A stretch of 64,000 nt of DNA from Aedes albopictus (Eukaryota > Arthropoda > Insecta > Diptera > Culicidae): contig NC_085137.1 in NCBI RefSeq assembly GCF_035046485.1, positions 132,684,703 to 132,748,702 of the forward strand, in the 5' to 3' direction. Below the pieces are notes generated by a model that saw only the letters and a list, made by a program, of their open reading frames with translations, ran no database searches and was not told the DNA's origin. Numbering within the stretch: the first letter of the stretch is position 1; every line of letters begins with the position of its first letter. The translations under genes were made by a program, and so were the position numbers. Below, one piece after another: positions 3,392 through 55,333 of the stretch.

Positions 3392-4154
3392 CCCGAGCAA
3401 AGGCGGATAACAAAATGATAACAAGTTCTGTTACCTGGTTATCATACGTTTGATAATTGAGTTTGTTATCATTTAGGTTGAATTAAGAGCCAACATAACA
3501 AAAATGATAACTCAAATTTACTCCACGAATACCAAAATGACAAGAAGTTAAGTTATCATTGAGTTCAAGTTGATAACTAATTGTGTTATACAATATTTTA
3601 TTCAATGTTACATTTAGTTATCAACATGAATAAATACAGCTGATTGATAACAGGTTTTGTTATCATTTAGTTATCATTCGGAGCTATTTTATCGACGAAA
3701 GTAGTAAAAATCTACTTTACCGACATGGTTAGCAGTTGAAAAAAGTTTATTGTAACTATAAACCCATGTTTTCAACTATTGCGCCCGGTCGGTCTCGAAC
3801 CCTGATCGAGTGATTATCGGTCGCAGCCGATAGCCCCTATACCAACGGGACTCAGTGAGAGGGAGAGTGGTTGAAGGCTACGCTTTCGTACTGCAGTCGC
3901 ATTGAAGATTCGAGGTCCGCCAGACCCTCAGTTCTGGGAAAGCTTTGAAATGTGCGTTTGAAACTGATAACATATTTTGTTATTATTTAGTATTTTTATG
4001 TTATCGTGATAGACCAAAATTATTGATAACTAAATTTGTTATCATCTGATTATCATCAATTGGAAAAGATGATAACAAAAATATCAAGATGATAATATCG
4101 ATAACATAGTTTATTATCAAAGTGATATCACTTAGTTATCCGCCTTTGCTCGGG
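3392..4154. mobile_element. MITE with GATA-motif-rich interior
   Basis: The terminal inverted repeats are CCCGAGCAAAGGCGGATAAC at 3392-3411 and its complement ending at 4154. The interior is AT-rich and dominated by about twenty TGATAA or TTATCA words in both orientations. A tRNA-like segment lies in the middle. There is no coding capacity. The flanks are CA/CAC-like, but I do not claim a target duplication. Confidence 0.8.
3786..3856 (-). other. tRNA-like segment (SINE head or tRNA pseudogene)
   Basis: Read on the minus strand it has an A-box-like GTTGGTATAGGGG and a B-box GGGTTCGAGACC at tRNA-like spacing, with an anticodon-arm-like inverted repeat TATCGG/CCGATA. The acceptor stem does not pair well, so a functional tRNA is unlikely. 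It lies within the MITE at 3392-4154 and is probably a SINE remnant. Confidence 0.5.
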
Positions 4155-4197
4155 CACCTACTTCAAAAAACCATAACTCAAGAACGAAGCATCGTAG

Positions 4198-4460
4198 ACA
4201 CATTTTTTATGAAATCGTAAGCAAATTTTCTCAGCAATCAGAAAAAAAAATACAAAATGAAAATTGTTTTCCACAAAAGTTTCCACCGTTGAGGAAAATC
4301 GGTTGGAAAAGTCGGAAAAACTATTTACGAAGTCTGGAAAAATTCTCAAAAAAAAATTTTTTTTGATGGAAATTACAAAAGCTATATTCTGTGAAATTTT
4401 CAAGACGTGGTTTTTCTTCGTTCCTGACCAATTTTGTGGAAATTTTCCAGATGTACTATA
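4198..4460 (+). repeat. Degenerate direct repeat, copy 1
   Basis: The block with TTTTCTCAGCAATC, then poly-A, then ACAAAATGAAAATTG, then GTCGGAAAAACTATTTA recurs at 4680-4850 with modest divergence. About 220 bases of other sequence separate the two copies. No gene is seen. Confidence 0.6.
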
Positions 4461-4679
4461 TGAGCCGTTTGTTTAAAAAATCAGAACTTAAGAATGAAGC
4501 ACCGCAGACACAATTATGGGATTCACTAAGCAGCGTAAACCGCTGATTAAAGATTACTCTGATTAAACGTCGCGAACACCAAAGCAATCTTTGATTATTT
4601 CATTCACAATTTCATGAAATATTTCAAATAGCAGAAAGTCATGGCTTACGCAAAAATTATAACAGTATAGTGAGTCCCC

Positions 4680-4850
4680 TTAATGTATTTTCATGAAATC
4701 ATAAGCAAGTTTTCTCAGCAATCTAAAAAAAAAAAATACAAAATGAAAATTGATTTCCAGTCGGAAAAACTATTTATGAAGTCCGGAAAAATTCCCAAAA
4801 AAAATATTTTTGGAAGGAAATTTTATAAGCTATTTTATAAGATTTCTCAC
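4680..4850 (+). repeat. Degenerate direct repeat, copy 2
   Basis: This is the second copy of the block at 4198-4460, sharing ATGAAATCATAAGCAAG, TTTCTCAGCAATC and CGGAAAAACTATTTATGAAG. It grades into the 'ttcc' minisatellite downstream. Confidence 0.6.
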
Positions 4851-4859
4851 AGAAACTCA

Positions 4860-5700
4860 CCAACTTTTTTTGGACAATCTTCCAGAAATTCTTTAAAAAA
4901 ATTCCAGGACTTCCATCTGATATTCTCTCTTCTAGAATTATTTTTTGAAGAATTTTATGGGTTTCTTCTGAAACTTCTCCAAGAATATCTTTAGAAATAT
5001 TCTGATGATTTCATCGGATACTCCTTCAGAGTTTCAAAAGTACTTCCTAAGATTTCTACAGGGATTTTACTGAATATTTCCTCATAACCAACTATCCTTG
5101 CACCTGAATGTGGAGTTTCGTTGTACGTTGTACGTTTTATATAAGTGTACAGATACGTTCATAGACTGAGAGGTCCATGCTGACACTTCAGGGGAGCAGA
5201 ATTCCTTCTGAAATACCTTTGAGGAGATTTTTCTTATCACCAGAGACTTCTTCAGAACTTTAGGAATTTCTTTGAGAGATTTAGCGAGGGATTTCATCAA
5301 AAATTTTGCAAGGAGTTTTTCAGAAAATAATCTAAAAATTTCTTTGCAAATCCTACAGGGATTGCTTCGGAAATTTCTCCCAGGGTTTCTCCGAGAATAA
5401 TTTGAGAACTCTGAAAAAAATCTTACAAGGATTTTTTATAAAAATTGCACCAGGGGTTCCATCAGAAATATCTCCTTTAGAGATCCTTGAAGAATTTGTT
5501 CAGATATTCCTCCAGAGATTTTCAGAAGTTTTTCTTGAAATAACACAAAAATACGAAGGATTATGTAAGGAATCCCTGAAGAAGTTTCTGTGAAATCACT
5601 GGAAGAGTGTCTCAAGAAATCCCTTAAAAAACTCCTGGCGATACCTTTGTAAACTCTCAGAGAAAAAAATTTCCTGGACAAAAATTCCTGAAGCAAATTC
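4860..5700 (-). repeat. Degenerate ttcc/gaa minisatellite
   Basis: Words such as TTTCTCCAGAG, GAATTTCTTC and CTTCAGAA recur every 10-15 bases, as in the better preserved 24-bp array at 9340-12410. Here divergence hides a clear unit. The orientation is mainly the 'ttcctcc' one. Open frames in it are a consequence of the repeat, not genes. Confidence 0.55.
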
Positions 5701-5751
5701 CGAGCTCTGAAGTTGTCTTATGAACAACACAGCGTAACAAAAATTAACTTT

Positions 5752-6372
5752 TGGTCTGTCTCAAGAGCAAACTTATGTGTCTCTGACAGATTTTGGTCCG
5801 CTGAATCCGAATCTGAGCTCAGATTTGCTCCAGCACGTCACAATTTTGAGCTATACCTCAATTTATAGGGCAAAATATGCGGTTTTGGTTTTTTTTTTAC
5901 TGCATGCACTTAGGCATGGAAATATTTTTTTTAAGCAATCAAAAGGTAAATTAGTCAATTAACATCTAAATTAACGACTCATGCAAAATATTTCGTTTTA
6001 TCAAATCGAATTTGATAGTTTTAAACGATTTATGGTAGGTACGATATTTCCCGTACAAGTTACCCTCCAAAAGTTGCATGCAAGTTTACATACTAACATA
6101 AAATGCTTAAATCTATCAAATTTGATTTCGTAAAACGAAATGTTTTGCATGAGTCGTTAATTTAGATGTTAATTGATCAATTTACCTTTTGATTGCTTAA
6201 AAAAAATATTTCCATGCTTAATGGCTGGCAGTAAAAAAAACAAAATCGCATATTTTGCTCTATAAATTGAGGTATAGCTCAAAATTGAGACGTGCTGGAG
6301 CAAATCTCAGCTCAGATTCGGACTCAGCGGACCAAAATCTGCCGGAGACACATAAGTTTGCTCTTGAGACAA
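5752..6372. mobile_element. Foldback element with 260-270 bp arms
   Basis: The arms at 5752-6022 and 6113-6372 are inverted copies. Both carry GAGCAAACTTATGTGTCTC, GAGGTATAGCTCAAAATT in complementary form and the AT-rich inner block ATGAGTCGTTAATTTAGATG. The loop is about 90 bases. It interrupts the minisatellite. There is no coding capacity. Confidence 0.8.
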
Positions 6373-6379
6373 AAAAATG

Positions 6380-6695
6380 TTGCGCTGTGCAATTCCTGGA
6401 TGAATGCCTAAGATAAAACCTAGGAGAATACCTGAAGAAATACCTCAAGTTGCCCCTTTTATTCTCTAAATAAAGTACTTAAATACTTATGCAGGAACTC
6501 TGCAAGTAATTTATAGGAAATTTAAGCAGAAATTTCTGAAAAAGTTTCTAGAAAAAAATCTGAATTTCTTAAGGAACCTCCTACAGAAAATTCTGAAAAA
6601 AAAGTCTCCGCACCTTTGTAAAAAAAAACTTCCGCAATTACATCTATAGAAGAAACGTTTGGAGGAACTCCTGGACAAACTCCTGAAAAAAATCC
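6380..6695 (+). repeat. Degenerate minisatellite, flank of the foldback
   Basis: This continues the 'ttcc/gaa' minisatellite, now largely in the 'gaggaactcctg' orientation, opposite to 4860-5700. It ends at the SINE beginning near 6700. Confidence 0.5.
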
Positions 6696-6699
6696 CCGA

Positions 6700-6872
6700 A
6701 GGGACATGCGGGGCGCATGCACAGTGGATACGGAGAAGAAACTATTCTCACGAAAAGTTGCATCGCCCGGAGCGGGAATTAAACCCTCACCCCACTTCAT
6801 GGTGCGTTGAGAAGCTTGGTGACCCTACCCGCACGGATACGAGGCTCTACAAGAAGTCATGGTGCCTTGGTT
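6700..6872 (-). mobile_element. tRNA-related SINE
   Basis: On the minus strand the element reads through a degenerate B-box GGGTTTAATTCCCGCTCC into ATGCAACTTTTCGTGAGAA. This is a combination I recognise from Aedes tRNA-derived SINEs. A short T-run lies at its 5' side in plus orientation (6870-6884). The A-box is weak, so it is probably an old copy. Confidence 0.55.
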
Positions 6873-7079
6873 TTTTTTTTTTTTGTACTATTCACAACCA
6901 GTGACCTTCAATTCGAATAGCTCTTCCTATTCTGATCAAACTGATGATACTGATGAAAAAAGCAATCTAATTTTACTTCTATTTCAAAGGACTTCCAGCT
7001 TCGACTCAAATGACCGATTATTGCACTTTTCAAACGATTTTCTCTTGGCTTTTCGCCCATTTCTGTAGCAATGATTAGT

Positions 7080-7310
7080 GGCTCCATAAGAAGTCCATGG
7101 ACAGAGATGCATTTAGTAGGGGCACTAAGAGGAATCTTTACAGGAATTCTTGCTACAATCATTCTAAGAAATCCTGCGAGAATCATCTTTCTGTAAACAT
7201 TTCAGTTAATTCCTCAAATAATCCCCAAAGAAATTTCTGGCGGTGTTCCTGGAAGTAATCCTGGAGAATTTTCTAAACATTTTAAGAAGAATTCTTGTAT
7301 AACTCATAAA
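7080..7310 (+). repeat. Weak continuation of the degenerate minisatellite
   Basis: Scattered AGGAATTCTTG, AGAAATTTCT and GGAAGTAATCCTGGAG words resemble the 24-bp family but cannot be aligned into clean units by eye. Confidence 0.4.
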
Positions 7311-7496
7311 AATAATTCTCTTCCGCGATAACTACAATAAATAAATCGTTAAATAATGATGCATGGAAGGGGTTTCCCGGAGTAATTACTAATTAGGCGC
7401 AATAGTGAAGTATTTTCCTTGGGAGCGTACCAGTATGAGGTGCGCTAAAACTTGAGTAACCAGCTCTGATTCTACCATAACAGCACTACTGGTGCC

Positions 7497-7749
7497 GGGT
7501 TTGTTGTCTGGAATTATTGCAACATGCCCTGCCAACCATATCCTTCCGGCTATGGCAACCTTGTGGATGTTGGGTTAACCGTAGAGTGCAGCGAGCTCAT
7601 GGTTCATCCTTCTCCTGCACATCGCCGAAGATCGTCCCTTCGTACGCGTCTCTCAAAACTCCTAGTGCTTGCAGATCCTCCTCGAGCATGGTATACGTCT
7701 CTTATAAAGGTTTTGTCGGCCTTATAAGCGTTTTGTACATGGTACATTT
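7497..7749 (-). pseudogene. RTE-like LINE, C-terminal part (split copy, segment A)
   Basis: On the minus strand this matches, with stops and frameshifts, the C-terminal region of the better preserved reverse transcriptase at 63124-64000. Shared stretches include the counterparts of MYKTLIRPVVLYGHETW, LGVFERRVLRTI and GHVARMPDNN. The match stops exactly at the hAT-like element beginning at 7750 and resumes at 12559, so the two segments are one old LINE copy split by that insertion. Below about 7497 similarity is lost. Confidence 0.75.
7742..7749 (+). repeat. Target-site duplication, left (GTACATTT)
   Basis: This is identical to 12559-12566. The uninterrupted site is represented in the related LINE at about 63560, which reads TGTACATGGTACATTT straight through. 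It is an 8-bp duplication, the hAT hallmark. Confidence 0.85.
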
Positions 7750-7879
7750 CAAGGGCGTAGCCAGCTTTTCGGCCAGGGGGGGGGGGGCGAGCACCCTTAC
7801 ACTGAAAACCACTTTGCAGTAACAAGGAGTTCAAATAGTTCATAATTAAAAAAAAATATATAAGTGAAGTATGAAATAT

Positions 7880-9330
7880 GGGTGATTAACAGGAATGATT
7901 CAATGGAAAAATCATATATGATCATAATCCTGAGGATTTCCTCAAGATATTGCTTCAGGAATTTCTTAACAAATGCCATCATTAATTTGAATTTATCCAG
8001 CAGTTTCTCCAGAAATTTCTTTATTATTTTTCCAGGTTATTTAAATGTAGATATTCCAGCAGAAATTACCTTCGGAAAACTTGCAGTAATTCCGTTGGGA
8101 ATACCTTCAGAAATTTCTTCAATAATTCCCCCAGAAGTTTTATTACGAATTTCACCGTGCATTCTTTTGAGAATTTCCCCAGTAATTCTTTACAAATATC
8201 ATTCATAATTCCACCAGAAATCCGTTTGAGAAGCTCCAGAAAATACTTTAAGAATTTCTCCGGGAATTCTTTCAAAAATTCCAATCAAACTAAGATTCCT
8301 TTCCTTGAGGAATACCCTAAGAAATTTATGGTGAAATTTCTTCGAAAAATCCTTTAATGAATTCCTTCGGAATTACCGGAAAAAATTCATTGAAAATTTC
8401 TAAAGGAATTCCTTCGGAAATTCCTGTAGGAATATCTTTGGAAGTTGCTAGAGGAATGCATTCGGAAATTTTTAAAGGAATCAATTAAAAAATAATTTCA
8501 GGAATTTATTTCGAAAATCCTTGAGGAATTCCATCGGAAATTCCTTGACAAATTCTTCAGAAATTTGTTGAGGAATTTCTTCATTTCTATAGTTCCTTGA
8601 GAAATTCCATAAGACATTCCTTCGAGAGTTCTTCTACGATTTCCTTTAGAAGATTCTTCGGGAATTCCTTGAGGAATTTCTTTGAAATAGATTTAGAATA
8701 TTCCTTGAGGAACTCCTTCGGAGTTTTCGTGAGGAATTCTTCCGAAAATTCCTTGAGGAATACCTTCAAAAATTCTTGGAGGAATTCATCCGGAAATTTC
8801 TGTGAGAATTCCTTCCCAAACTCCTGAAGCAATTCTTTCGAAAATATTGAAAAAATTCCACTAAAAGTCTCATGAGATATCCCTTCTGAAATTCCATAAG
8901 GAATTTCTTTTAAAATCTTTCAAACCTTCCTTGAAAAAAATATTTCGGAAATTCCTGAAGAAATGCTTTTTGTGATTTTTTATTTCCTAGAGGAACTCAT
9001 TCGGAAATTCTTTGAAGAATTCCTTTAAAAATGCCTTGACAAGGAAAATTCGGAAATTGTTAAAGGAGTTCGATTGGAATTTTTTTTGACATATGTCTGA
9101 AATGTCTATTGGAATACCTTGGGAAATTTCGTGAGAAATTGTTTGATAAGTTCGTTGAGGATTTTTTTCGGTTTTTTTTAATAAATCTTTACGAAATTCC
9201 TCAAGGAATTCCAGCGAAAGATCCTTGAGAAGATTCTGCGGAAATTCCTCAAGAAATTCCTTCAAAAATGTATTGCGGAACTCCTACGAAAACTTGAGAA
9301 ACTTCTTCAAACATTCCTTCAGAAACACGT
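7880..9330. repeat. Decayed outer part of the minisatellite
   Basis: GGAATTCCTT, GAAATTTCTC and GGAATTCC words are dense but spacing and orientation are irregular. 7900-8340 mostly reads in the 'gaatttctcc' sense, while 8345-9330 mixes both. This is the old or rearranged edge of the array at 9340-12410. Confidence 0.7.
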
Positions 9331-9339
9331 TTGGGGATT

Positions 9340-11130
9340 ATGTGGGAAAATCCTAAGGAAATTTTTTGAGGACAACCGTCAAAAATTTTTGGAGGAATTC
9401 ATTCGGATATTTTTGTAGGTATTTCAAGGCAAATCCATAAGAAATTTCCTGGAAATTCCGGGAGGGATTTCTTTAGAAATTCGTAGAGGAATTCCTTCGG
9501 AAGTTCAGGAGAAAATCCTTTGAAAATTCCAGGAGAAATTCCATTGAAAATTCCTGGAGGAATTCCTACGGAAATTCCTGAACAAACTCCTCCGGAAACT
9601 CATGGAGGAATTCTTCGGGAAAATCCTGGAGGAATTCCCTCGGAAATTCTTGGAGGAATTCCTTCGAGAATTCGTGGAGGATTTCCTTCGGGAATTTCGG
9701 GAGGAATTTCTTCGGAAATTCCCGGAGTAATTCCTTCGGAAATACCTGGAGAAATTCCTTCCTGAAATTTCTGGAGGAATTCCTTCGGAAGTTCATGGAG
9801 GAATTCCTTCAGAAAATCCTTGAGCGATTCCTTCGCAAAAGTCCTGGAGGAATTCCTTCTGAAATTAATGGAGAAACTCCTTCGGAAATTCGTGAAGGAA
9901 TTCCTGGAGAAATTCTTTCGAAAGTTCCTGGTGGAATTCCTTCGGATATTCATGAAAGAATTCCTTCGGAAATTCCTGCAGGAAATCCTTTGAAAATTCC
10001 AGGTGAAATTCCTTTGAAAATACCTGGAGGAATTCCACCGGAAATTACTGCAGGAATTCCCTCGGAAATTCCTGAAGGAATTCCTTCGGAAATTTATGAA
10101 GCAATTCTTTCGGAAATTCCAGGAGGAATTCCTTCGGAAATTGCAGAAGGAATTTCTTTGAAAATTCCTGGAGGATCTCCTTCGGAAATTCCTGGAGGAT
10201 TTCCTCCGGAAATTTCTGAAGAAATTCATCCGGAAATTCATGGAGGAATTTCTCAGGAAATGCCGGGAGGAATTCCTTTGAAAATTCGTGGAGGAATTTC
10301 TTCAGAAATTCGTGAATGAATTCTTTCGGAAAATTTCTGGAGCAATTCCTTCGGAAATTCATGGAGGAACTCCTTCGGAAATGCTTAAGGATTTCCTTCG
10401 CAAAATTCCTGGAGGAATTCCTTCGGAAATTCCTGGAGGAATTCCTTCGGAAATTCATGGAGGAATTCCTTCGGACATTCATGGAGGAATTCCTTTGGAA
10501 ATTCCAGGAGGACATCCTTTAAAAATTCCAAGAGGAATTTCTTTGAAAATTCCTAGAAGAATTTCTTCGGAAATTCTTGGAGGAATTCCTCCGGAAATTC
10601 CTCGAGAAATTTCTTTGGAAATTCGTAGAGGAATTCCGTCGGAAAATTTCTGGAGGAATTCCGTCGGAAATTCATGGAGGCATTCCTTCGGAAAATCCTT
10701 TAGAAATTCCTTGGCAAAATTCCTGGAGGAATTTGTTCGGCAATTCATGGAGGAATTCCTTCGAAAATTCATGGAGGGATTTCTTCGGACATTCATGAAG
10801 GAATTCCTTCGAAAATTCCAGGAGGAAATCCTTTGAAAATTCCAAGATAAATTCCCTTGAAAATTCCTGGAAGAATTCCTTCGGAAATTCCTTCAGCAAT
10901 TCCTCCGGAAATTCCTAGAGTAATTCCTCCAGAAATTTGTGGAAGAATTTTTCCGAAATTTCCTGGAGAAATTTCTCCGGAAGTTCCTGGAGAATTTCCC
11001 TCGGAAATTCCTGGAGGAATTGCCACGGAAATTCCTGGAGGAATTCTCTCGGAAATACATGGTGGAATTCATTCGGAAAATCCTGAAGGAATTCCTTCGC
11101 AAAATTCCTGGTGGAATTACATCGGAAATT
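9340..11130 (+). repeat. 24-bp minisatellite, forward arm
   Basis: About 70 tandem units have a 20-base core GGAATTCCTTCGGAAATTCC followed by TGGA, with point variation and occasional 6-12 bp slips. Each unit holds an EcoRI-type GAATTC. Because the unit is 24 bases, frames repeat every eight codons; the plus strand reads GIPSEIPG, EFLRKFLE or NSFGNSWR in its three frames. Long open frames at 9795-10319 and 10288-10836 (plus) and 9600-10241 (minus) are products of this periodicity. They have no other domain and change phase where the array slips, so I do not call them genes. Confidence 0.9.
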
Positions 11131-11149
11131 CATGGAGAAATTCCTTTGG

Positions 11150-12410
11150 CAATTTCCAAAGCAATTTCTCCAGGAATTTCCGACAGAATTTCTCCTGGAA
11201 TTTCTGAAGGAATTCTTCCTGGAATTTCCAAAGAAAAATCCTTCAGGAATTTCCAAAAGAGTTTCTCCAGGAATTTCCGAAGAAATTTCCAAAGGAATTC
11301 CTCCAGGTATTTCCAATGGAATTCCTCCAAGAATTTCCGAAATAAATGCTCCACGAATTTCAGAAGGCATGCATCCAAGAGATTCCGGAGGGATTTTTCT
11401 AGGAATTTCCAAAGAAATTCCCCTAAGAATTTCTGAAAGAATTCTTGCAGGAATTTCCAAAGGAATTCCTCCATGAGTTTTCAAACGAATTCGTCCAGCA
11501 ATTTCCGAAGGAATTCCTCCCGGAATTTCCGAAAGAATACCTCCAGGAATTTCCGAAGGAATTCTTCCAGTAATTTCCGAAGAAATTATTGCAGCAATTT
11601 CCGAAGGAATTCCTCCAGGAATCATAAAACGCATTCCTCTAAGATGTTTAGAATGATTTTTTTCCAGGAATGTCCTTAGGAATTCATCCAAGGATTTTCT
11701 CAGGAATTTCTCTATAGATTTCTGAAAGAATTCCTCCAGAAATTTCCGGAGGTATTCATCCAAGATTTTTCGAGGGAACTCCCCAAGGAATTTCCGAAGG
11801 AATTCCTCCAGAAATTTCCGAAAGAATTCCTTCAGAAATTTCCGAACGAATTCCTTCAGAAATTTCCGAAGGAATTCTTCCAGGAATTTGCGAAGGGATT
11901 CCTCCAAGAATTTTGTAAGGAATTCCTTCTGGAATTTTTTAAGGAATTCCTCCAGGATTTTTTGAAGGAATTGCTTCAGGAATTTCCGAAAGAATTCCTC
12001 CAGGAATCTCCAAAGGAATTCGTCCAGCAATTTCCGAAAGAATTCCTCCCAGAATTTCCGAAAGAATTCATCCAGGAACTTTTGAAAGAATTCCTAACGG
12101 ATTTCTGAAGGAATTCCTCCAGGAATTTCCGAAAGAATACCTCCAGGAATTTCCGAAGGAATGCTTCCAGTAATTTCCGAAGAAATTATTCCAGCAATTT
12201 CCGAAGGAATTTCTTCAGGAATTTCCGAAGGAATTCCTTCAGGAATTTCCGATGGAATTCTTCCAGGAATTTGCGAAGGGATTCCTCCAGGAATTTTGGA
12301 TGGAATTCCTTCAGGAATTTCCAAAGGATTTCCTCTAGGTATTTCTGAAGGAATACCCTCTGGAATTTTCGAAGATATTCCTCCAAGAATTTCCGAAGGA
12401 AATCCTGCAT
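11150..12410 (-). repeat. 24-bp minisatellite, reverse arm
   Basis: The same unit runs in the opposite orientation from about 11150, where GGAATTTCCGAAGGAATTCC now reads on the plus strand. About fifty units are present. The switch lies between roughly 11130 and 11165 with no spacer. The 371-codon open frame at 10915-12030 (minus) crosses this switch and changes from EFLRKFLE-type to GIPSEIPG-type repeats there, which supports the view that it is not a selected protein. Confidence 0.9.
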
Positions 12411-12489
12411 ACATTAAAAAAAATACGAGGAGAATTTTATTTTTACTAGTCAAAAACAGCTCTGATCATCTAAGTTTTTCGGTTAAGTT

Positions 12490-12545
12490 AGAATATAGTT
12501 GCTCGGTCAGGGGGGGCCACGCCCCCCTCCTGCCCCCCCCCTCCT
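12490..12545 (+). repeat. G/C homopolymer-rich end of the hAT-like element
   Basis: Runs of G and then C (cagggggggccacgcccccc) are mirrored by the poly-G run at 7776-7787 at the other end. Such G-runs just inside the ends are also seen in the 48034-55377 element. Confidence 0.75.
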
Positions 12546-12558
12546 GGCTACGCCCTTG

Positions 12559-13510
12559 GTACATTTCGTGTAGGGGTGATTATTTTTTGATCTACTATTA
12601 GCTGCTTCTGCAGCCCGTAGTAGGAATGACCTCCATTGATGATGCGCCTTCAAATTTCACGACTCCGATTATTGTCAGTCGTCAATAAGAATCCGAAAGA
12701 TAAATTCCTCAACTAGCTCGTAGGTATCCCTGTATATCGTAACATTACTTTTAAGACGAATCTTGTCGTGTTGGGTTCCGCCTGCCAGCATGTACTTTGT
12801 TTTCAAAGTACACCAATGATCTGACCATTACTGCTTCGTATTTCATGCGGGTGTACAGTTCTGCCACCGTTCCAAATGTTCTGGCGATAATGTCCATGCC
12901 GTCCACAAAGCACACAAATTGGCCGGATTTCGTGAAAAGCGTACTGCTAAGCCCAGCTCGTCGCATTACACCTACCAGAGCGATGTAGGCATGAGAGTGC
13001 GTCACCTTTTCGCAATCCGCGGCGAGTTCCCCCAAAACTCTAGCACAGTTGTGCGTATCGTCCATCGTTGCTTTGATAACTTCCCACGAACTCGTTTGTT
13101 TTGACGACGGAAGATAATCTGGGATATTGTCGGGCCGCCACCAAACCGGACGCCCCACAATCAAGTCGCGACGCGACTCAACTCGCGACGTTTTTGAATC
13201 ATGTCAAAAGTAGTGCGCATCCTTCCCGTTGTTGTCTGCAACACAGCGCACTAGATGCGAAACAGTTGCGACACTTGTGGACCAAGAAAATGGCAATTTT
13301 TGATTGAATGTCTGTCTTGATTCCAACCGGATAGACAATAGTACTTTGTGTAGACGGCATTTAAAATGGTGATCGCTGTGAAGTTCTCACTTTCCAAATA
13401 GTCGTCTTTATTGTGGATGGGGCAATCTACTCCTTCTTTTCACTCCTCCGGTAGTTGTTCGATTTCCCAGATCCTGAGTATGCACCGGTGCAGACAGATG
13501 ATCAACTTCT
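12559..13510 (-). pseudogene. RTE-like LINE, central reverse transcriptase (split copy, segment B)
   Basis: On the minus strand, from high to low coordinate, the following can be read. LPEEWKEG and PIHNKDDYLESENFTAIT (a fingers region, near 13320-13450) come first, then VIKATMDD near 13070. ALVGVMRRAG follows near 12970, then TKSGQFVCFVDGMDIIARTFGTVAEL, where the catalytic FADD has become FVDG. After that come the KTKYM and EEFVYLGS regions in broken form near 12700-12800. Frames change and residues are lost near 13165-13310. This is the upstream half of the LINE whose C-terminal part lies at 7497-7749. Confidence 0.75.
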
Positions 13511-18117: not shown

Positions 18118-18620
18118 TAGTTTTCTGAGGGGTTTCAAGGCGCTTAAAAACATTTCAATGCATTTTGACAGGTTCCACGGGATTTCAGGGAGCTTCTGTA
18201 GAGTTTAAGGGAAGCCAGCAGGGGTCTCAGGGAGGTTTCGGAGGAGTTTTAAGGCGTTTAAAGCAGAGGACTGTTATGGTCTTCTTGTTTTCTTACCCAG
18301 CATTAAAACTATGTTGCTGTGTTAAAAGATAGATTGTCAGCTTGAGCCTCACGCTTGAGCCGCAGTTATGTTGGCTACGAAAACATTGTATTGGTGAGAT
18401 AGGGATGGCAATTCCTTGGTTTCAAGAGGTTTCAGGGGCTTTCAGGGCCCTTCAATAGAGTTGAAGTGAAGCCTTCGGGGTTCTCAGGCGGTTTTTTTAG
18501 GGATTTCAAAGCTTTAAGATGTTTAGAGAGCTTATAGAGGGTTTCAGTAGAGTATGAGAGAAGTCTACGAGGGTTCTATGGAGTTTCAAGGCGTTTCAAT
18601 GCGCTTCAAGGGTTTAAGGG
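18118..18620 (+). repeat. Degenerate GTTTCAGGG-type minisatellite
   Basis: GGTTTCAAGGCGTTT, GGATTTCAGGGAG, GGTTTCAGGGGC and similar words recur every 12-30 bases in 18120-18260 and 18410-18610. The segment 18265-18405 interrupts. It is different from the 24-bp family and no clean unit can be defined by eye. Confidence 0.55.
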
Positions 18621-18769
18621 CTTCTGTGCTCATTGTGTTTCAAAAGATCGCTATGCTTGAAAATCAAATGAACTATATTTACTCTAGTTCTTGGATATGC
18701 TTAGTGTCCCTCGCGCTCCAATTCAAACTCGCAAACCCTCCATAAACCCTGAAACAGCTTCAAGTTTAA

Positions 18770-20335
18770 TAGATTTTTTCCAAAGTTCCTTATCCAAGAA
18801 ATTGATTCAAGAAGCCCTTCATGAAACCTTCTTTGGATTTCTTCCGAAAATGCTCAATGGTATTCTTTAGAAAATCCCCCAATAATTTCTTTCAGAAAAT
18901 CTTCCACAGTTTTATTTGCATTTTCTGTAAGAACATCTTCCATGAATTACTTCAAAAATTCTTCTAGAATTTCCCTCAGAAGTTCTTTCGGTATTTCCTC
19001 ATGGGCATCCTCCAGAAATTTCTCCAATAATCCCTCTAAAAAAGCTTCCAAGAGTTTCCTTAGAAATTCCTCCATAGATAATTTCAGAAATCCGTACAAT
19101 TTCCTACTGAAAATCAATAGATCAGGATTCCTCCAGAAATTTCTCCAAAGATTTGTTTGGAAAATCTTCCACGTGTTTTTTAAGAAATTCATCCGAAGAT
19201 TCCTTCAAAATTCTTCCAGGAATTCTATTAGAAATTTCTCTGGAAATTCTGTCAGAAGTTCTTCCTCCATAAGTTTGCCCAAGGAATCCTGTAAGAAATA
19301 TTCTAGGGATTTTTCCCTAAATTGCTCCAAGGATTCCTTCAGAAGGCACTCCAGGAGTTCGGTCTTATAATCTACCAAGGATTCTTTCAGGAACTTCTTC
19401 AGCGATTTCTTCAGAAGATCTTCCAGAGATTCTTTAAGAAATTTCTCCGGTGCTTCTTTTAGATATTCCCTCAAGAATTTCTCCAGAAATTTCTCCAAAT
19501 TTTGTTTGGTACATTTCCATGGGTTCCTTCTGATACTCTAATTCGATTAATCAAGAATTTTTTCTAAGGATTTGTTCAGCAAATCCTTTGGAATTGTCTT
19601 CAAGAATTCATTCAGAGTTTTCTACAGGGATTCCTTCAAAAATTCTTTACGCAATACGTTCACAGATTGCTCCAGAAATACTTTCGGAAAATCCTAAAAA
19701 AAATCAAGGATTTCTCAAGGAATTTTCCTAAAAAATCCTCAGTACACTTTAATAAGAATCCCAACAAGGGTTTCCTGAGGAGTTTCGCCAGGTATTTCTC
19801 CAGGAAGATCTTCGGAAATTTCGCCTGGAATTCTTCCAAGAACATTCCTCTAGAGATTCATTCAAGAGTACTTCCTGAAGTTCCTATAGAGATTCTTCAG
19901 AAATTTCTGGTCGGATTGCTTCTGAAATTTCTTTAAGGATTCCTTCTAAAATATATCCAGAGACTACTTAAGAATTTTAGAGGTTTCTCCAGAAATATCA
20001 GCGAGGGATTTCTTTAAAGTTCTTCCATGGAGTGTTCCAGAAGTTGTTCTTATTTTTTTTCTTAAAGTCCTATAGTGGTTTCTTTGGAATGTCTTCCAAG
20101 TGTTCCTCCAAGAATTCCTTCAGAGAGTCATGCAGGAATTTCTTAAAGCATCATTTTTTTTTAAATTTCCCGTGCGGTTTCGTAAGGACTATCTCCTGGG
20201 ATTCTTTCAGAGATTCCCGCATGAATTGTTCCAGAAACTCCATCAGGGATTTTTATCAGAAGCTCTACCGGAAATTGCACAAAAAACTGCTTGGAAGAAC
20301 CCCTGAAGAATTTTTTAAAGTAATCCTTGAAGTAT
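18770..20335 (-). repeat. Degenerate minisatellite, reverse orientation
   Basis: CTCCAGAAATTTCTCC, AGGGATTCCTTC and TTCCAAG words run through 1.5 kb in the 'ttcctcc' sense, with a rough 24-36 base rhythm. It is an older relative of 11150-12410. Open frames on both strands (for example 18942-19370 and 19205-19498) show only the leucine/phenylalanine/lysine/glutamate or serine/asparagine/arginine repetition expected from it. Confidence 0.65.
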
Positions 20336-20339
20336 AGTC

Positions 20340-21330
20340 GGAAGGAATCTCTTGAAAAAGCTTATGACGATACCTTTGATGATATCTGGAAGATATTCAT
20401 GAACATTTCCTGGACAAAAAATCTTGTAGCAATTTCTGAAGTTCTCTGGAGGATTTTCTGGATGAATGTTTGGGAGAATACTTGAAAAAAAAAACTTCTA
20501 AGGATATCTCCTTAGAAAAAAATCATGAGATACTTGTGGAGGAACTCTATAAGTTATTCCAAGGAAAATTTGCTTGAGAAATTTTTGGAGGAATTCTTGG
20601 AGAAATCCTTTGAGGAATTTCTGAAGGAAACCCTAAAAAAATGTCTATAGAATCTGAGCAGAAGTTGCCGAAAAAGGTACTAAAGGAACTCTTTAAGAAA
20701 TTCCTCATTAATTACTGAGGGTTGCCTGGAGGAATGAATGAATCCTTGGAAGAACTCCTCTAGAGATACCTTTGGAAGAATTCTTAGAAGGATTTTTCAA
20801 TACAATTTTTGAATGGAGTAGTATACAAATTCCTTGAAGGGAGAAATTTCTGAAAGAAATCCCACAGGAACAAAACAAAAACTTGTATAAATTTCTGTAA
20901 AAAATGATTTTTTAAAGGAATATTTGAAAGAATACCTAAAAAAACTGGAGAACCCTCTGAAGGTAATCATTGCTGAATTTCTCGAAAAAATCTTTGAAAA
21001 ATGCCAAGGAAAAGATTCTATAGTAATTTCTGCAGGAGTTGCTGGGAGGTTTTTTCGGAGAATTTATTGAAGCATCACCGGTACAATTTCTGAAGGGATC
21101 CCAGAAGAAAGGTTTGCATAAACCCTAAGCAATCCCTGGTGGAATCCCTTGATATATGTAGTAATACACGTCGGAATCAACCAGGATACATTCCATCAAT
21201 TGTTACTGAAAGAGTACCTAGAAAAATAATATGAACTTCTTAAGAAACCATTTAGAGGAATCTCTGAAAGAATTTCCAAATCTCCGAGAATATGCACCTC
21301 TTAAAGCAATCTTTAGAGGATTCCTTGAAT
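20340..21330 (+). repeat. Degenerate minisatellite, forward orientation
   Basis: From about 20340 the sense flips: GGAGGAATTCTTGGAG, TTTGAGGAATTTCTGAAGG and GGAAGAATTC words now read on the plus strand. With 18770-20335 it forms a second reverse-then-forward array. No terminal inverted repeats or duplication were found around it. Confidence 0.6.
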
Positions 21331-21399
21331 TCCTAAGAGAATTTCTTGTGTCGCCAACCAAATTGGGCATGGATATGAACGCGACTATCCTGAAAGGGT

Positions 21400-21580
21400 T
21401 TTTTTATCTGTATTAACGAGATTTTTAGCCCTGGACTAGTTCATCTCGGGACCCACACTTTGCTTCCATTCCGATGGAAGAACTCACATTTTATGAGATT
21501 GTCGGGAGTGGGATTCGATCCCAGGTCCTCGGCGTGATAGTCACGTGCTTTAACCATCACACCAGGTCCGCTCCACATTC
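21400..21580 (-). mobile_element. tRNA-related SINE (GAGATGAAC type), full copy
   Basis: On the minus strand it has an A-box in TGGTGTGATGGTTAAAGC and a B-box GGGATCGAATCCC, then a body (CGAGATGAACTAG, TAAAAATCTCGTTAATACAG) and a T-run-terminated 3' end. A duplication TGAAAGGGT flanks it (21391-21399 and 21581-21589). Other copies in the window lie at 28681, 39445 and 48319. Confidence 0.85.
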
Positions 21581-27239: not shown

Positions 27240-27712
27240 GACAATTCTACAATGTCAGCCCAAAATTAAAGATGGCGGTCTAAAATCCAATATGGCGGCT
27301 CAAAATTCAAAATGGCGGTTGTATAATGGAGTTTTAGACCCAAAAACCATGCAATAAGGGTATATTTTGTATGGGGAAGATGTATGGAGTCCAAAAATGG
27401 CGACCTGGATATCCAAGATGATGGTCTAAAATCCAAGATGGCGGCTCCAAATTCAAGATGGCGGCTCCAAATTCAAGATGGCGGCTGTTTAATGGAGTCT
27501 TTGGCCCTAAAACCATGCAATATGGGTATATTTGGTATGAGGAAGATGTCAGGAGTCCAAAAATGGCGACCAAAATATCCAAGATGGCGGTCTAAAATCC
27601 AAGATGGCGGCTCCAAACTCAAGATGGTGGCTGCGTAATGGAGTTTTAGGCCCTAAAATCATGCAATATTTGGTATGAGGAAGATGTCTGGAGTTCAAAA
27701 ATGGCGACCTGA
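27240..27712 (+). repeat. GATGGCGG satellite, left block
   Basis: About three units of roughly 145-165 bp each hold ATGCAATATGGGTATATT, GAGGAAGATGTCTGGAGTCC, AAAAATGGCGACC and two or three copies of CCAAGATGGCGG separated by TCTAAAAT or CTCCAAATT. The array resumes at 29165 after an insertion. It contains short ORFs such as 27384-27638, which are repeat shadows. Confidence 0.85.
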
Positions 27713-29164: not shown

Positions 29165-29665
29165 AACGGAGGTCCAAAATCCAAGATGGCGGCTCCAAAT
29201 TCAAAATGGCGGTTGTTTAGTGGAGTATTTAGCTTCAAAACCATGCAATATGGGTATATTTGGTATGAGTAAGATGTCTGGAGTCCAAAAATGGCGACCT
29301 CATTATCCATAATGGCGGTCTAAAATCCAAGATGGCGGCATCGAATTCAAGATGGAGGCTGTTTAATGGAGTTTTATGCCCATGCAATAAGGTTATATCT
29401 GGCATGATGAAGGTGTCCGCAGTCTAAAAATGGCGACCAGAATATCAAAGATGGCGATCTAAAATCCAATATGGCGGCTCAAAATTCAAGACTGTGGCTG
29501 TTTAAAGCAGTTTTAGATCCTAAATTCATGCAATATGGGTATATTTGGTATGGTAAAGATGTCTGGAGTCCAAAAATGGCGTCCACAATATCCAAGATGG
29601 CGGCCCAAATACCAAACTGGCGGCTCCAAATTCAAGATGGTTGTTGTTTAATGGTGAGTTTTGTT
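29165..29665 (+). repeat. GATGGCGG satellite, right block
   Basis: This continues the array of 27240-27712, with three more units carrying CCAAGATGGCGG, ATGCAATATGGGTATATT and AAAAATGGCGACC, in the same orientation. Confidence 0.85.
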
Positions 29666-40194: not shown

Positions 40195-41250
40195 AACCCG
40201 GGGTCCATTTGGACCTCAAATTTGATCTTCTGTATCTCATGATCCTGACTTCTTAGAAGATCGGTGTTTTCAGCAAATATGTTGGGTTGGTCAAGGACTT
40301 ACAGGTGCTGGACCTTTTAATTCGAAATTTCATATATAGGTGGCGCTAGTGAGCATGTAAGTATTAAGTATTTGAGCACATATACATATATCAAGATCCT
40401 GACCACATAGAAATTTGGTGTCTTCAGCAAAGTTGTTTATTAGATAAAGTGTTTACTAATGATGGACCGTTTGTTTGAAAATTTCACTCATAGATGGCGC
40501 TACTGAGCGTGCAAATTTTATATTAATGTATCTCAGGATCCTGATCACCTAGAATGATGGTATCTTCGGCAATGTTGTTGACTTGCTCAAGGACTGAGAG
40601 ATGCTGGCCTGTTTGATTCGGAACTACATACATAGGTGGCGCTTGTGAGCATGTAAGTGTTAAGTATATGATCACATATATATCAAGATCCTGACCACAT
40701 AGAAATTTGGTGTCTTTGGCAAAGTTGTTTATTGGGTCAGGTGTTTACTAATGATGTACCGTTTGTTTGAAAATTCCACACATAGATGGCGCAACTAATT
40801 GTGCAAATTTAATGTTTCATGTATCTCAGGATGCCGAGCACCTAGAAAGATGATATCTCAGGCAAAGATGTTGGATAGGTCAAATACTTACAGATGATGT
40901 GCCGTTTGATTTGGAACTCCACGTATAGGTGGCGTTACTGAACTCGCATATTTCTTATATCACACTTATCGCAGGAATCTGATCATTTTGAAAGATGGGG
41001 TCTTCGGAAAAGTTGTTGCGTAGGCCAAGTAGTTACAGACCATGCGCCGTTAAATTTGGAAATTCGGTGAGCATTCAAATTGTATATGTATATGTATCTC
41101 AGGATTCTGAGCTCAAACAAACATGGGGTCTTCGGCAAAGTTGTTTGGGTAGATCAACGCTTACAGTTAATGTGCCGTATAATTCGGAACTCCACATGTA
41201 GGTGGCGGTACCGCGCATGCAAATTAAATATTTCACATGTATTAGGATTC
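40195..41250 (+). repeat. 145-bp satellite, left arm
   Basis: About seven units of 140-160 bp read ATAGGTGGCGCTAGTGAGCA, then an AT-rich stretch, TATCTCAGGATCCTGA, CTTCGGCAAAGTTGTT, AAGGACTTACAGATG and TTTGATTCGGAA. TGGCGC cores lie near 40331, 40492, 40637, 40785, 40930 (weaker) and 41203 (weaker). The outer edge carries GGGGTCCATTTGGACC (40200). Confidence 0.85.
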
Positions 41251-48033: not shown

Positions 48034-48147
48034 CAGTGGCGTAGCTAGGGATTTGGGGGCCCGGTGCGGAAGCAAATTGGTAGGCCCCCCAGAAAATTAC
48101 ATAAATCTTTACATTTAACTGTCGAATGATCGCACTGTTGCATTTTG

Positions 48148-48260
48148 TACAAAACGTTGAAAAAATCTCGCTTTTTGTACTCAGCATTCTAGTGATGCTG
48201 GCAGTGATGGCCAACGGAAGGTTAAACATTATCTATCTTATCTTATTTTCTGTATTCCTT
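48148..48260 (+). repeat. Dispersed repeat shared with 57778-57870
   Basis: CTCGCTTTTTGTACTC, then GCATT, GGCAGTGATGGCCAAC and GGAAGGTTAAAC align with the counterpart near 57790-57870. Its nature is unknown. Confidence 0.55.
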
Positions 48261-48318
48261 TATGTTTTTTTTCGGGAGCGAAAGATTTTTTTATAAGAAT
48301 TATGCCGAAAAAGTTTTT

Positions 48319-48494
48319 TTTTATCTGTATTAACGAGGTTTTTAGCCCTAGGCTTGTTCATCTCGGGACCCACGATTTACTTCCCTTCCGAAGGAAGAAC
48401 TTACATTTTTCGAGTTTGTCGGGAGTGGGATTCGATCCCAGGCCCTCGGCGTGATAGTCAAGTGTTCTAACTATCACACCAGATCCGCTCCGCT
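48319..48494 (-). mobile_element. tRNA-related SINE (GAGATGAAC type), full copy
   Basis: The minus strand reads GCGGATCTGGTGTGATAG (A-box region), then GGGATCGAATCCCACTCCC (B-box), CCCGAGATGAACAAGCC and TAACGAGG in complement. A 12-bp duplication GAAAAAGTTTTT flanks it (48307-48318 and 48495-48506). Confidence 0.9.
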
Positions 48495-48512
48495 GAAAAA
48501 GTTTTTAACAAA

Positions 48513-48776
48513 TTCTAGATTGAGTTTAAATAAGGACGAAAGTAACATGAGAGAGTTCTCTTCATCGACTCTCTCTTCTGCAAATTACAGTGACAAGATG
48601 CAAATTCAATCGAACTTTTTTACATTTAGACGCTAGATTGCATCGCAACCTAGCGATTAATGGCCAAAAAGTTCAATCATACTTGCATCTTGTCACTTTA
48701 ATTTGAAGAAGAGAAAGTCGATGAAGAGAACTCTCTCATGTTACTTTCGCCCTTATTTAAACTCAACCTAGAATTA
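48513..48776. mobile_element. Foldback MITE of about 260 bp
   Basis: The arms, about 105 bp each, carry GAGTTTAAATAAGG, AAAGTAACATGAGAGAGTTC, TCTTCATCGACT and AGTGACAAGATGCAA, and pair with few mismatches. The loop is about 45 bases. It is a strong hairpin. Confidence 0.85.
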
Positions 48777-48789
48777 TTCAGAAATTGCA

Positions 48790-49965
48790 CAAAATAATCC
48801 TTTATAAACGCTTTCAAAGATTGCTTTATCTTTTTCTTTGGGAAATCTTTCTTGAAGAATAATTTGTCTTCAAGAATCTTTTAAGTTGCTAATGCAAGGA
48901 TGTCATTCAGTATTCCTTTAAAAGCTTTATTAATGAGGCTTTCATCCCCTTGGTTGGTTCACCTCAGACATTCAGCAATGTTTTCAAAAGTACTACAGAG
49001 TAATTTAAAAGATTCTTGCAAAGGCTTCATCGAGTATGTCTAGAAATATTAGTTCAGGAATCTATCAATTATATCTCTGAGGATTTATCTAGAAGATCAT
49101 CTAAAGAATTCTTGAAAAACTCCAAGAAAAATACTACAAAAAACCACCAATGATTCATTCAGAACCAGATATTCTTCCAAGAAATTACATCGCGATCCCC
49201 TCAGAGGAAGAGAAGCCCTTCTAGAATTTCCTTAAAAATTCTTTCGTTTCTTCCAGGGAATCCTCTAAATATTCCTTTGGTGATTTTCCACGAAAGTCAA
49301 ATATTTCTCCATAAATTCTTCAAGTATTTCTCAATTATTCCCTCAAATAACTTTTTCAGATATTTCTCCAATATTTAAACTTGTTATTTCCTCAAGCATT
49401 CCTAACTTTTCTTGGCGTTTTTTTTAAGATTTCTTAAGAATTATTCCCTAGGATTACTTCAGAAATTCCACCAAAGATTCCTTTTTCCAAAAGTATTCAT
49501 CGTGAAGTTTCTCTAAAGGTTTTACTAAGAGATTCATCCTAGAATTCCTCCTAGAAATATCCAAAGAATCAATTGGATAATAATAAAACAAAATCTCCAA
49601 GGATTCCTACAGAAGAAATTGAATTAAATAAATTAATTATTAATTAATTATTAATTAAATTAGTTAAATTAAACTTTTAGATGGACTTCTGTAGGAGTTC
49701 TGTAAGAATTCTTTCGAAAAATCCTTCTGGACTTCCTCTAACGAACTTTTCAATATCCATCAACTCTAGGAGTTTTCTCAAAAGTTCCTTCAGCAATTTT
49801 TGCTAGTATTCCTCTGGGGACTTTTCAAAAAACTTCTATTCCGATTTTTGGTAAGACTCAAGACTCCTTAAAAATTCTTCCAAGGAAAAATAATTCTAAG
49901 TTTCCATCACGCATCTCAGTCAGGAATTTCTCCAGAAGTTGTGATTGATTCCTCCAGAATTATTA
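48790..49965 (-). repeat. Degenerate minisatellite inside the second hAT-like element
   Basis: TTCCTCCTAGAAATAT, AGATTCCTTTTTCC and GAATTTCCTTAAAAATTC words show the 'ttcctcc' sense. It is highly decayed. An AT-only patch of TTAATTAATTA lies near 49625-49670. Confidence 0.5.
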
Positions 49966-50099
49966 CGTTATTTTTTATATTATCCGTGCTACCGTGCTCA
50001 CTTCTAACAAATATACAAAAATAAGAAGCAGAACAAAAAGCGCTTCATTCCTTTGTTTTGAGTGGTATGAAAATGCGAGCGTATATGCTTAAATAGTAA

Positions 50100-50560
50100 A
50101 AGAACAGATACCCAATCGTGTCAAAACAAATAACTTCTCCAGAAGTCTCTCAAAGGATTCCTCCTAAGACTATTTTACAACTTTCTGCAGGAGTTCTTTA
50201 AGAATACCTAGGAGCATCCTTTAAGTAATTAATGCAAGGCTATGATTTCATAGAGGATATTCATCGGGAATTTTTCAGGAATCGCTTCAAGAATTCATAC
50301 GAGTATTTTTCCAAGGATTTCTTAAATATTTCTTCAAAAAAATCTCCTGGAAATTATCACAAGAGTCTGTCAGAATTTATTCAAGGATCTTGTTAGAAAC
50401 TCCTGCGAAGGTTTCATTAATCGTACAAGCATTAAGCATTTTGCTTATTTTTTTTAATAACATCTCCAAAGCTTCCACCATTACTTTTGGGATTTTTCCA
50501 GGAATCGATTTTCTAAGGTTATTCAACATTCTAAAGGAATTCCTTCAAATTTTACCGTAA
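50100..50560 (-). repeat. Degenerate minisatellite, continued
   Basis: Same character as 48790-49965: GGATTCCTCCTAAGAC, AGGAATCGCTTCAAGAATTC. No gene. Confidence 0.45.
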
Positions 50561-50564
50561 TCTC

Positions 50565-51790: not shown

Positions 51791-51816
51791 GATTTTTTTT
51801 TTAGAAATTCCTTTAA

Positions 51817-51931
51817 CCTTCCAGGACGCGCGCCATCAAGCAACCGAAACTGCACCGCGATCGCGCTGTATACGAAAAGCGAGGTTTTTTGGTAGTGTTG
51901 TACTTTTTACAACAGCGCGCGCGCTGAAGGG
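51817..51931. mobile_element. TTAA-flanked GC-rich hairpin MITE
   Basis: TTAA (51813-51816 and 51932-51935) encloses CCTTCCAGGACGCGCGCC and, inverted, CCCTTCAGCGCGCGCG. The 115-bp body includes GAGGTTTTTTGGTAGTGTTG. TTAA targeting and CCYT ends suggest piggyBac-type mobilisation. A partial copy lies at 26440-26525. Confidence 0.75.
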
Positions 51932-51939
51932 TTAATAAG

Positions 51940-54350: not shown

Positions 54351-54359
54351 TATTTTCCG

Positions 54360-54790
54360 TGAGGAACTCCTGCAAGATTCCTTCTCGAAGAAGTTTCTAA
54401 AATCATTCTTGGAGAGATTTCTTATGGTCCATCTAAAAGATTTCTTGAAGGGCTTCATGACATAATCCTTGAATGGCTTTATGACCCTTTCCGAAGAGGT
54501 ATTTCTGAACGACTGCTTGAAGAAATTCCTACATAAAAAAATCTCAAAGGAATTCCTGAAGGATTTCTTGATAATTTTTTGAAAAAAATCCTGAAAAAAT
54601 GTTAGGAGGAGTTCCTTTAGGAATCATTGTAAGTATTCGTACACCAATGCTTAGAATTTTTTTTTAAGCAATCCCTAAAAAATGTGCTGAAGTAAATCTT
54701 AGAGGAATTTTTGTAGAAGTCTTTGGAGTAACTGCCTGATAAATCGAAAAAGATATTCTTGCCCGAAGGAATTCCCACAGAAAGCCTTCA
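54360..54790 (+). repeat. Degenerate minisatellite, forward sense
   Basis: The sense flips to GAGGAACTCCTGC, AGGAATTCCTGAAGG and GGAGGAGTTCC, as at 20340 in the other array. It is the right edge of the minisatellite cargo. Confidence 0.5.
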
Positions 54791-55241: not shown

Positions 55242-55333
55242 CTGGGGACCCGAATTCAGGGGGCCTCCAAATCAGGGATGGTTTATAACACTAGACCTGC
55301 CCTGATTTGGAGGCCCCCTGAATTCAGGGACCC
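55242..55333. repeat. Palindrome at the right end of the second hAT-like element
   Basis: GGGACCCGAATTCAGGGGG, continuing CCTCCAAATCAGGG, is mirrored by CCCTGATTTGGAGG then CCCCCTGAATTCAGGGACCC, around a 22-base loop. Confidence 0.85.

Follow-up and report, generated by a model that had tools for sequence, protein, structure and literature searches.

A probable non-autonomous transposon of hAT type in Aedes albopictus, with a foldback-like minisatellite body

We identify a family of Aedes albopictus insertions that, with a probability of about 85%, are non-autonomous hAT-type transposons with a foldback-like body, the minisatellite array being that body. The minisatellite would accordingly be dispersed because it forms the body of a transposon, and not because transposon ends capture satellites anew. 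The elements have 8-bp target-site duplications and the short terminal inverted repeats (TIRs) of the hAT type, and 17 of the 21 copies read carry opposing arms of tandem subrepeats with no coding capacity.

A genuine insertion within a probable decayed LINE

The window, a 64,000-nucleotide stretch of the Aedes albopictus genome, contains at 7750-12558 an element of 4,809 bp whose 15-bp inverted ends match exactly and whose flanking 8-bp duplication is likewise exact. Its TIR, CAAGGGCGTAGCCAG, lies at 7750-7764 on the plus strand and at 12544-12558 on the minus strand, each being the sole exact match on its strand within the window. The duplicated target site GTACATTT (11 occurrences in the window, both strands together) immediately borders the element in identical copies at 7742-7749 and 12559-12566. 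Inward of the left TIR, a unique subterminal region (7765-7997) consists of CTTTTCGGCCAG, a G-run and an A+T-rich stretch common to copies of the same type (type A, see below). This is followed by a forward arm (7998-11150) of units of 24 bp (GGAAATTCCTGGAGGAATTCCTTC), degenerate on its outer side and better kept from 9451, and by a reverse arm (11151-12418, minus strand) of the same unit in opposite orientation. A unique subterminal region terminating in C/G-runs (12419-12543) leads to the right TIR.

Tandem Repeats Finder placed 24-bp arrays at 9451-11154 in one orientation and at 11151-12406 in the other, with older degenerate units from about 8059, while tiling counted 110 forward and 52 reverse units. 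Unit matches of at least 18/24 occurred at 99 + 68 positions in the real element and at none in one letter-shuffled version. The original observation of more than one hundred 24-bp repeats, forward then reverse, in place of a transposase is borne out.

The element separates the upstream (12567-13164, with an ORF at 12751-13164) and downstream (7450-7741) halves of a minus-strand sequence that we take, by the motif YTKCTMYKTLIRP and its copy number, to be a LINE. When the flanks are joined with one copy of the duplication, the decayed LINE reads in frame (...YTKCTMYKTLIRP...). Using the joined 290 bp as query, we scored 40 of 2,252 candidates; two were the window's own halves, and the other 38 of 38 (78-79% identity) cross the junction without an insert. 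These uninterrupted paralogues, along with the terminal features, confirm the genuine 4.8-kb insertion that had been proposed. The halves had also been said to join perfectly, which holds for the junction but not for the LINE itself, as this is decayed.

A large family with ends and array together in the copies read

Allowing three mismatches in a 27-mer, we counted 1,551 left ends across the genome, compared with 0 for a reversed-pattern control; exact matches to the 15-mer TIR number 1,549. Among 100 listed places there were 27 end pairs, 20 of which were fetched, chosen by the spacing of their ends alone; 46 of the 100 ends had no exact partner. All 20 fetched pairs contain the minisatellite array, the opposite of a family whose other copies never carry it. 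Together with the window element these give 21 copies, most of them duplicated at the target site: 15 have exact 8-bp duplications (14 of them independent, because L011 and L012 share flanks), three have exact 7-bp duplications, and the remaining three have duplications with one, two and five mismatches.

Copies range from 4.1 to 9.0 kb, and even the smallest of the 27 pairs (4,069 bp) is above MITE size (less than about 1 kb). If each left end represented a near-complete copy, the family would total about 9 Mb (1,551 ends at a mean of 5.8 kb from 15 A copies), an estimate on the upper side because of the 46 in 100 ends without an exact partner. A pattern designed to exclude the common A and B ends found 44 + 58 places, against 0 + 1 in the reversed control; among the 100 listed, most were variants of the usual left end, and none of the others was seen, by eye, near a listed transposase.

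Long tandem arrays are error-prone in assembly, and the structure could in principle have arisen by chance or in assembly, with an array lying beside unrelated inverted ends. We give this a negligible probability, considering the excess of left ends over the reversed control, the duplications around most copies and the uninterrupted LINE paralogues. An assembly join in particular is very unlikely, since all 20 other fetched copies have the same kind of interior.

Two types of element and the origin of the array

The forward-then-reverse layout defines type A (17 of 21 copies), and the other four copies (type B) carry a 12-bp repeat chiefly in one orientation. Pairwise identity among 18 A copies averages 0.939 (range 0.892-0.995), compared to 0.79-0.80 for two A-to-B pairs in the same kind of alignment. 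The A copies have unique subterminal sequence in common, and the first 90 bp are similar across most of them. For example, the window element is 92.9% identical to copy L023 over 7750-8156 and 88.6% over 12313-12558. A and B are alike over about 50 bp at each end and different further inward.

The layout shared by 17 of 21 copies and the alignment of A copies at 94%, against 79-80% to B, suggest that the array had already expanded in an ancestral element and was carried along as that element spread. Of two alternatives offered earlier, expansion of the array inside a small MITE is favoured over mobilisation of satellite DNA: a single alignable array and common subterminal sequence run through the A copies. 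The small-MITE ancestor itself is our postulate, as the 27 pairs at the 100 listed places include none that is short and free of the array. From these sequence comparisons we favour the view that individual copies did not pick up their arrays separately.

The competing view is that hAT ends repeatedly enclosed pre-existing minisatellite arrays, each copy being an independent capture. Consistent with this, the same kind of repeat lies under different end types, A and B sharing so little beyond their ends, and part of B's left subterminal region matches another window element with a different TIR (76.5% over 81 columns), the interior of which is weakly 12-bp periodic (0.352 at lag 12, background 0.279). 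These observations imply that cores may have been swapped between ends, at least on rare occasions. However, all A pairs compared are 89-99.5% identical and have their subterminal sequences in common, and the minisatellite was encountered only with elements. All eight loci on contig C1 below 160 Mb that carry an exact double unit (four placed by sequence, four by position) lie in an element or on the inner side of an element end, with no free-standing array among them, and the one other place read (L052) is also inside an element. Likewise, over the 45,688 bp of the window that element-like blocks do not occupy, the coverage of a repeat profile rounds to 0.00. High coverage by this profile in the window element and eight copies is by construction, as it was trained on them. 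It also separates strands poorly because the unit nearly equals its own reverse complement. The reversed window still returned 17 matches with E below 0.01 (1.5e-6 for the best of those listed), and the reversed controls of two A elements were 5-6% covered. Taken together, independent capture appears highly improbable, and the element can, as had been suggested, explain how the minisatellite is scattered.

Whole-unit differences are frequent between copies. Among 4,005 gaps measuring 10-400 bp, 1,126 are divisible by 24 and 1,687 by 12, the pairs being non-independent. The reverse arm, with about 52 units in the window copy, has 91-123 in six other A copies tiled. L052 contains a fresh run of 730 bp at 95% or higher lag-24 identity, with 19 successive perfect units; none of 23 other element loci scanned has a similar run.

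Coding capacity and a possible transposase partner

The copies read yielded no transposase, and no stop-free frame longer than 140 aa occurs in the array-free parts of the five copies examined. The longest frames of the 21 copies look like translations of the repeat. A coding role was considered, the unit length being a multiple of 3 and stop-free frames reaching 392 aa, and was rejected: the long frames are taken to be repeat-made because they are found on both strands and in different frames.

The genome has 23 listed DUF4371 places and 138 listed dimerisation-domain places, the latter read only where they fall inside DUF4371 loci. The TIR was present within one mismatch at none of the 23 DUF4371 loci (5 read over 6-8 kb, 18 over 1.5 kb per side), and TIR-like sites with 2-3 mismatches in L045 and L048 had no partner site in the stretches read. 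No DUF4371 partner with exactly the family's ends was found at these loci. The same genome contains L057, a transposon of 3,343 bp with DUF4371 and Dimer_Tnp_hAT domains, flanked by an exact 8-bp duplication. Like the family, it has CA..GGCGTA ends and G-runs just inside both ends; unlike the family, it carries transposase frames, has the TIR CATTGGCGTAAATA and measures only 3.3 kb. In four comparisons of A ends to L057 ends, with G/C-runs shortened beforehand, the scores were reached by 1, 3, 0 and 0 of 1,000 shuffles. The likeness contains gaps and does not distinguish left from right, since the left end of A matches best with the right end of L057. Repeat matches in the L057 stretch fall outside the L057 element.

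The hAT-like character first proposed is supported by the 8-bp duplication, the short inverted ends beginning CA and the resemblance of both ends to this DUF4371/hAT-dimerisation transposon. Judged by sequence, mobilisation in trans by a hAT transposase is likely.

Possible roles of the mirrored arms

One possibility, to which we give limited credence, is that the array is functional: the opposing units would be subterminal binding sites that assist the transposase or keep both ends in contact, about 100 per arm having been retained by selection for transposition. Orientation is mirrored around the centre in 17 of 21 copies, and the tandem repeats of the foldback element Galileo contain secondary transposase binding sites (PMC4079207). 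Against this, type B is mainly in one orientation, and unit and TIR have no evident common motif by eye. Mirrored arms are in any case unnecessary for insertion, since two of the four B copies (L025 and L026) have exact 8-bp duplications.

Transcription of the arms could also yield kilobase double-stranded RNA and, from it, endogenous siRNAs, making the element a regulatory or self-silencing locus, a role compatible with the transposon reading. In 2.4 kb around the arm junction, 821 of 970 predicted RNA pairs link both arms (-1,252 kcal/mol), compared with 199 of 918 (-1,048 kcal/mol) with one arm inverted and, in three shuffles of unit order, 572-746 of 917-945 (-1,089 to -1,132 kcal/mol). 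In Aedes aegypti, MITEs take 15.03% of transposon-mapping endo-siRNAs compared with 2.03% of such piRNAs (PMC3259105). However, type B is without mirrored arms and an Rfam search of 7600-12700 returned no match, and we regard this role as unlikely.

The two arms pair through the likeness of their units. The folding contrast also seemed to point to a specific arm order, but a stricter whole-unit shuffle control agreed only for the window copy. There, the order-dependent match between arms was above all 60 whole-unit shuffles, but it was not in five other copies. The arms are thus not clearly inverted copies of one another: alignment with shuffles gave an order-specific match in only one of six copies, and a unit matrix likewise gave no clear sign of inverted copying.

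Comparison with known elements

By description, sea urchin TU elements resemble this family in their 8-bp duplications and in arms that contain short tandem repeats. Sea urchin is mentioned among foldback hosts (PMC4079207). Foldbacks (FB, Galileo and Tetris of Drosophila virilis) resemble the family in their long inverted arms of tandem repeats, lack of apparent coding capacity, flanking domain at the ends, variable repeat number and capacity for further repeat expansion (here L052). Tetris has duplications similar in length to the family's, 8-9 bp in three complete copies, but its repeats are about 220 bp and its structurally complete copies number three, as opposed to a 24-bp unit and 1,551 left ends here (PMC4079207). 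Most foldbacks seem to be Mutator members, with exceptions (PMC4079207). The present family differs from most foldbacks in its hAT-like ends, and no separate middle domain was seen. The foldback label is limited to type A, since B (4 of 21) lies mainly in one orientation.

We recognised no description of the family in the literature; Repbase or TEfam may catalogue it. The name of the m8bp MITEs of Aedes aegypti, a TEfam class (PMC3422177, PMC3755910), presumably implies 8-bp duplications. MITEs are likewise non-autonomous but short, against 4-9 kb of mostly repeat here.

A model for the family and its implications

We postulate that a short hAT derivative acquired a 12-bp repeat, and that in lineage A a dimer of this repeat (24 bp) expanded and ended up in two opposing arms. 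The interior as observed comprises about 100 forward and then about 100 reverse 24-bp units and can be aligned among copies. The completed element would then have been amplified in trans by a hAT transposase able to recognise its ends, perhaps of the DUF4371 kind, and its copies may have gained or lost whole repeat units following insertion. A more far-reaching but improbable extension is that several hAT end types (A, B and the window's CAGTGGCGTAGC type) have a common minisatellite core as their body. This core would have moved from one set of ends to another and developed from a 12-bp form into a two-armed 24-bp one, because the repeat itself would promote transposition; it would then be a satellite spreading genome-wide by cut-and-paste.

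An array that is itself the transposon would provide a clear route for the dispersal of a short tandem repeat. The opposed 24-bp arms of type A and the one-way 12-bp repeat of type B offer a natural test of the role of mirrored repeats in transposition. Likewise, the kilobase hairpins predicted here lend themselves to testing how endogenous siRNAs originate.

Structure and insertion site of the element

The element spans 4,809 bp (window 7750–12558), with the 15-bp terminal inverted repeat CAAGGGCGTAGCCAG at 7750, its reverse complement at 12544 and the 8-bp target-site duplication GTACATTT on both flanks, in line with the original prediction. Unique sequence of ~240 bp on the left and ~140 bp on the right encloses the repeat arms, where the predicted hundred-plus 24-bp repeats, forward then reverse, were found: about 110 units run forward and 52 in reverse. 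Both flanks belong to a decayed minus-strand LINE, identified tentatively by its motif. That its halves rejoin upon removal of the element was borne out: the reading frame is unbroken over the join once a single duplication copy is kept, and all 38 scored non-window matches to the rejoined site cross it uninterrupted (40 of 2,252 candidates scored).

Another such element occupies window 48034–55377 (7,344 bp; ends CAGTGGCGTAGCTAG/CAGTGGCGTAGCAAG; exact 8-bp duplication ATTTCAAC). Its interior shows a weak 12-bp periodicity and 10% coverage by a repeat profile trained on the 7750–12558 element and eight copies (0.00 in the reversed control), and its left end has 292 + 310 genome matches at ≤3 mismatches. 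Decayed repeat blocks of the same kind as these elements lie at 4500–7741 and 18500–21400 (profile coverage 12% and 36%, respectively; reversed controls 0.00). Three tandem arrays are also present, at 27262–27632 (period 166 bp), 29171–29654 (146 bp) and 40217–40941 (292 bp); a similar AAATCCAAGATGGCGGCTC-like motif recurs in the 166- and 146-bp arrays.

A family of minisatellite-bearing copies

The window element, on contig C2 of the 1.344-Gb genome, is a member of a family and not a single case. Its 15-bp end has 776 + 773 exact matches in the genome (reversed pattern 0 + 1), and the 27-bp left end 776 + 775 at ≤3 mismatches (control 0). Among 100 matches listed, all on contig C1 below 65 Mb, 54 places form 27 convergent pairs and 46 are without an exact partner. 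Twenty of the 27 pairs were fetched, omitting the final five and two of more than 10 kb. The copies analysed thus come from a single chromosome end, from the window and from a small number of loci reached through their repeat. The interiors between paired ends, proposed as a check on the cargo, contained the minisatellite in 20 of 20 fetched pairs. With the window copy added, exact 8-bp duplications flank 15 of the 21 and exact 7-bp duplications another three, the remaining three carrying 1, 2 and 5 mismatches. Two copies (L011 and L012) have their flanks in common and look like a single insertion, duplicated later along with its surroundings.

The copies fall into two types, alike over about 50 bp at either end and divergent further in (L025 vs L023). 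Type A, with forward then reverse arms, accounts for 17 of 21 copies, window included; type B (L014, L018, L025 and L026) has its repeat mainly one way. Lag identities give a 24-bp repeat for A (two copies, 0.65–0.67 at 24 vs 0.50–0.52 at 12) and a 12-bp repeat for B (two copies, 0.50–0.51 at 24, 0.51–0.53 at 12), over a background of 0.26–0.28. Seven tiled A copies hold 98–110 forward units; reverse units number 91–123 in all but the window copy, whose 52 point to a probable loss of about half the reverse arm. A further A element, in locus L055 (C1:20157000-20166000; one mismatch per end, exact GAATGACA duplication), seems to be nested inside an element of the 48034–55377 kind; a corresponding left end lies about 400 bp past it, and its other flank has 17% repeat coverage.

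The 48-bp double unit, at ≤1 mismatch, occurs 147 + 113 times in the genome (control 0). On C1, exact double units fall at eight separate loci within the range spanned by the left-end listing (below 160 Mb). Four of these lie inside elements by sequence (L016, L022, L055 and L056, the last with one end seen), one within an end pair among the matches listed, and three 4.5–7.1 kb inward from a left end among the matches listed; none of the eight is a free-standing array, in a test that detects only units near the A consensus. Profile coverage is 86% in the window element, which supplied part of the training set (reversed control 5%); once element-like blocks are set aside, the remaining 45,688 bp of the window give a coverage that rounds to 0.00. 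Over 92,974 bp of partly overlapping stretches around hAT transposase genes (25 loci), the profile covers 1,526 bp, in three of the loci (reversed control 0).

Age of the array

Pairwise global alignment of 18 A copies (16 fetched pairs, the window copy and L055) gave a mean identity of 0.939 (range 0.892–0.995), whereas the same method, which forces some match between any two such arrays, gave only 0.79–0.80 for two A-to-B pairs. Aligned columns against 14 A copies comprise 92–98% of the window copy and 64–92% of the other. Units inside one copy agree on average at only about 16–17.5 of 24 letters. The high identity among A copies, set against the A-to-B value and the low likeness of units within a copy, argues for a single, inherited array that predates the spread of the copies. 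Alignment gaps from copy to copy tend strongly to unit size, 1,126 of 4,005 being multiples of 24 and 1,687 of 12, which indicates that whole units were lost or gained.

Foldback character

When the 2.4 kb surrounding the junction is folded as RNA in silico, 821 of 970 predicted pairs link the two arms, compared with 199 of 918 when one arm is flipped and 572–746 of 917–945 when unit order is shuffled. Arm pairing stems mainly from the overall likeness of the units: a specific inverted order of the arms was detected in the window copy, above 60 of 60 shuffles, and not in the five other copies. The element thus works like a foldback element, but the order test lends no support outside the window copy, one of six, to the idea that one arm arose as an inverted duplicate of the other.

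Mobilisation and comparison with known elements

The longest stop-free frames in the 21 copies are repeat-derived, and array-free stretches of five copies contain no frame above 140 aa. The copies are probably mobilised in trans. The DUF4371 loci include a transposon at L057 2374–5732 (3,343 bp; CATTGGCGTAAATA ends, exact 8-bp GGTAGTAC duplications), whose long 528-aa frame matches DUF4371 (E 8.4e-21) and whose 174-aa frame matches the hAT dimerisation domain (E 2.1e-6). Another locus, L058, has the same left end in a different flank. Four A-to-L057 end scores were reached by 1, 3, 0 and 0 of 1,000 shuffles with long G/C-runs shortened, in gappy alignments where the A left end fits the L057 right end best. 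This likeness makes DUF4371 hATs our best guess for the partner transposase.

Foldback arms with tandem repeats, and a role as satellite seeds, are already known from Tetris of Drosophila virilis (PMC4079207), and a review tabulates transposon-derived repeats, such cases included (PMC9659126). Our search of the open-access literature, with Repbase and TEfam outside its scope, found no published description of the present family, which differs from tandem-repeat foldbacks such as Tetris in its hAT-type ends, very short unit, many ends and lack of a separate middle domain. Exact units from one copy, L052, dominated the repeat search and led to its choice; the stretch takes in one end of its element and, at the opposite end, the inner part only. 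At 4094–5006 it contains a nearly perfect new expansion of the 24-bp unit inside the element copy. This fresh local expansion, with 19 consecutive perfect units within 730 bp, is possibly a satellite seed.
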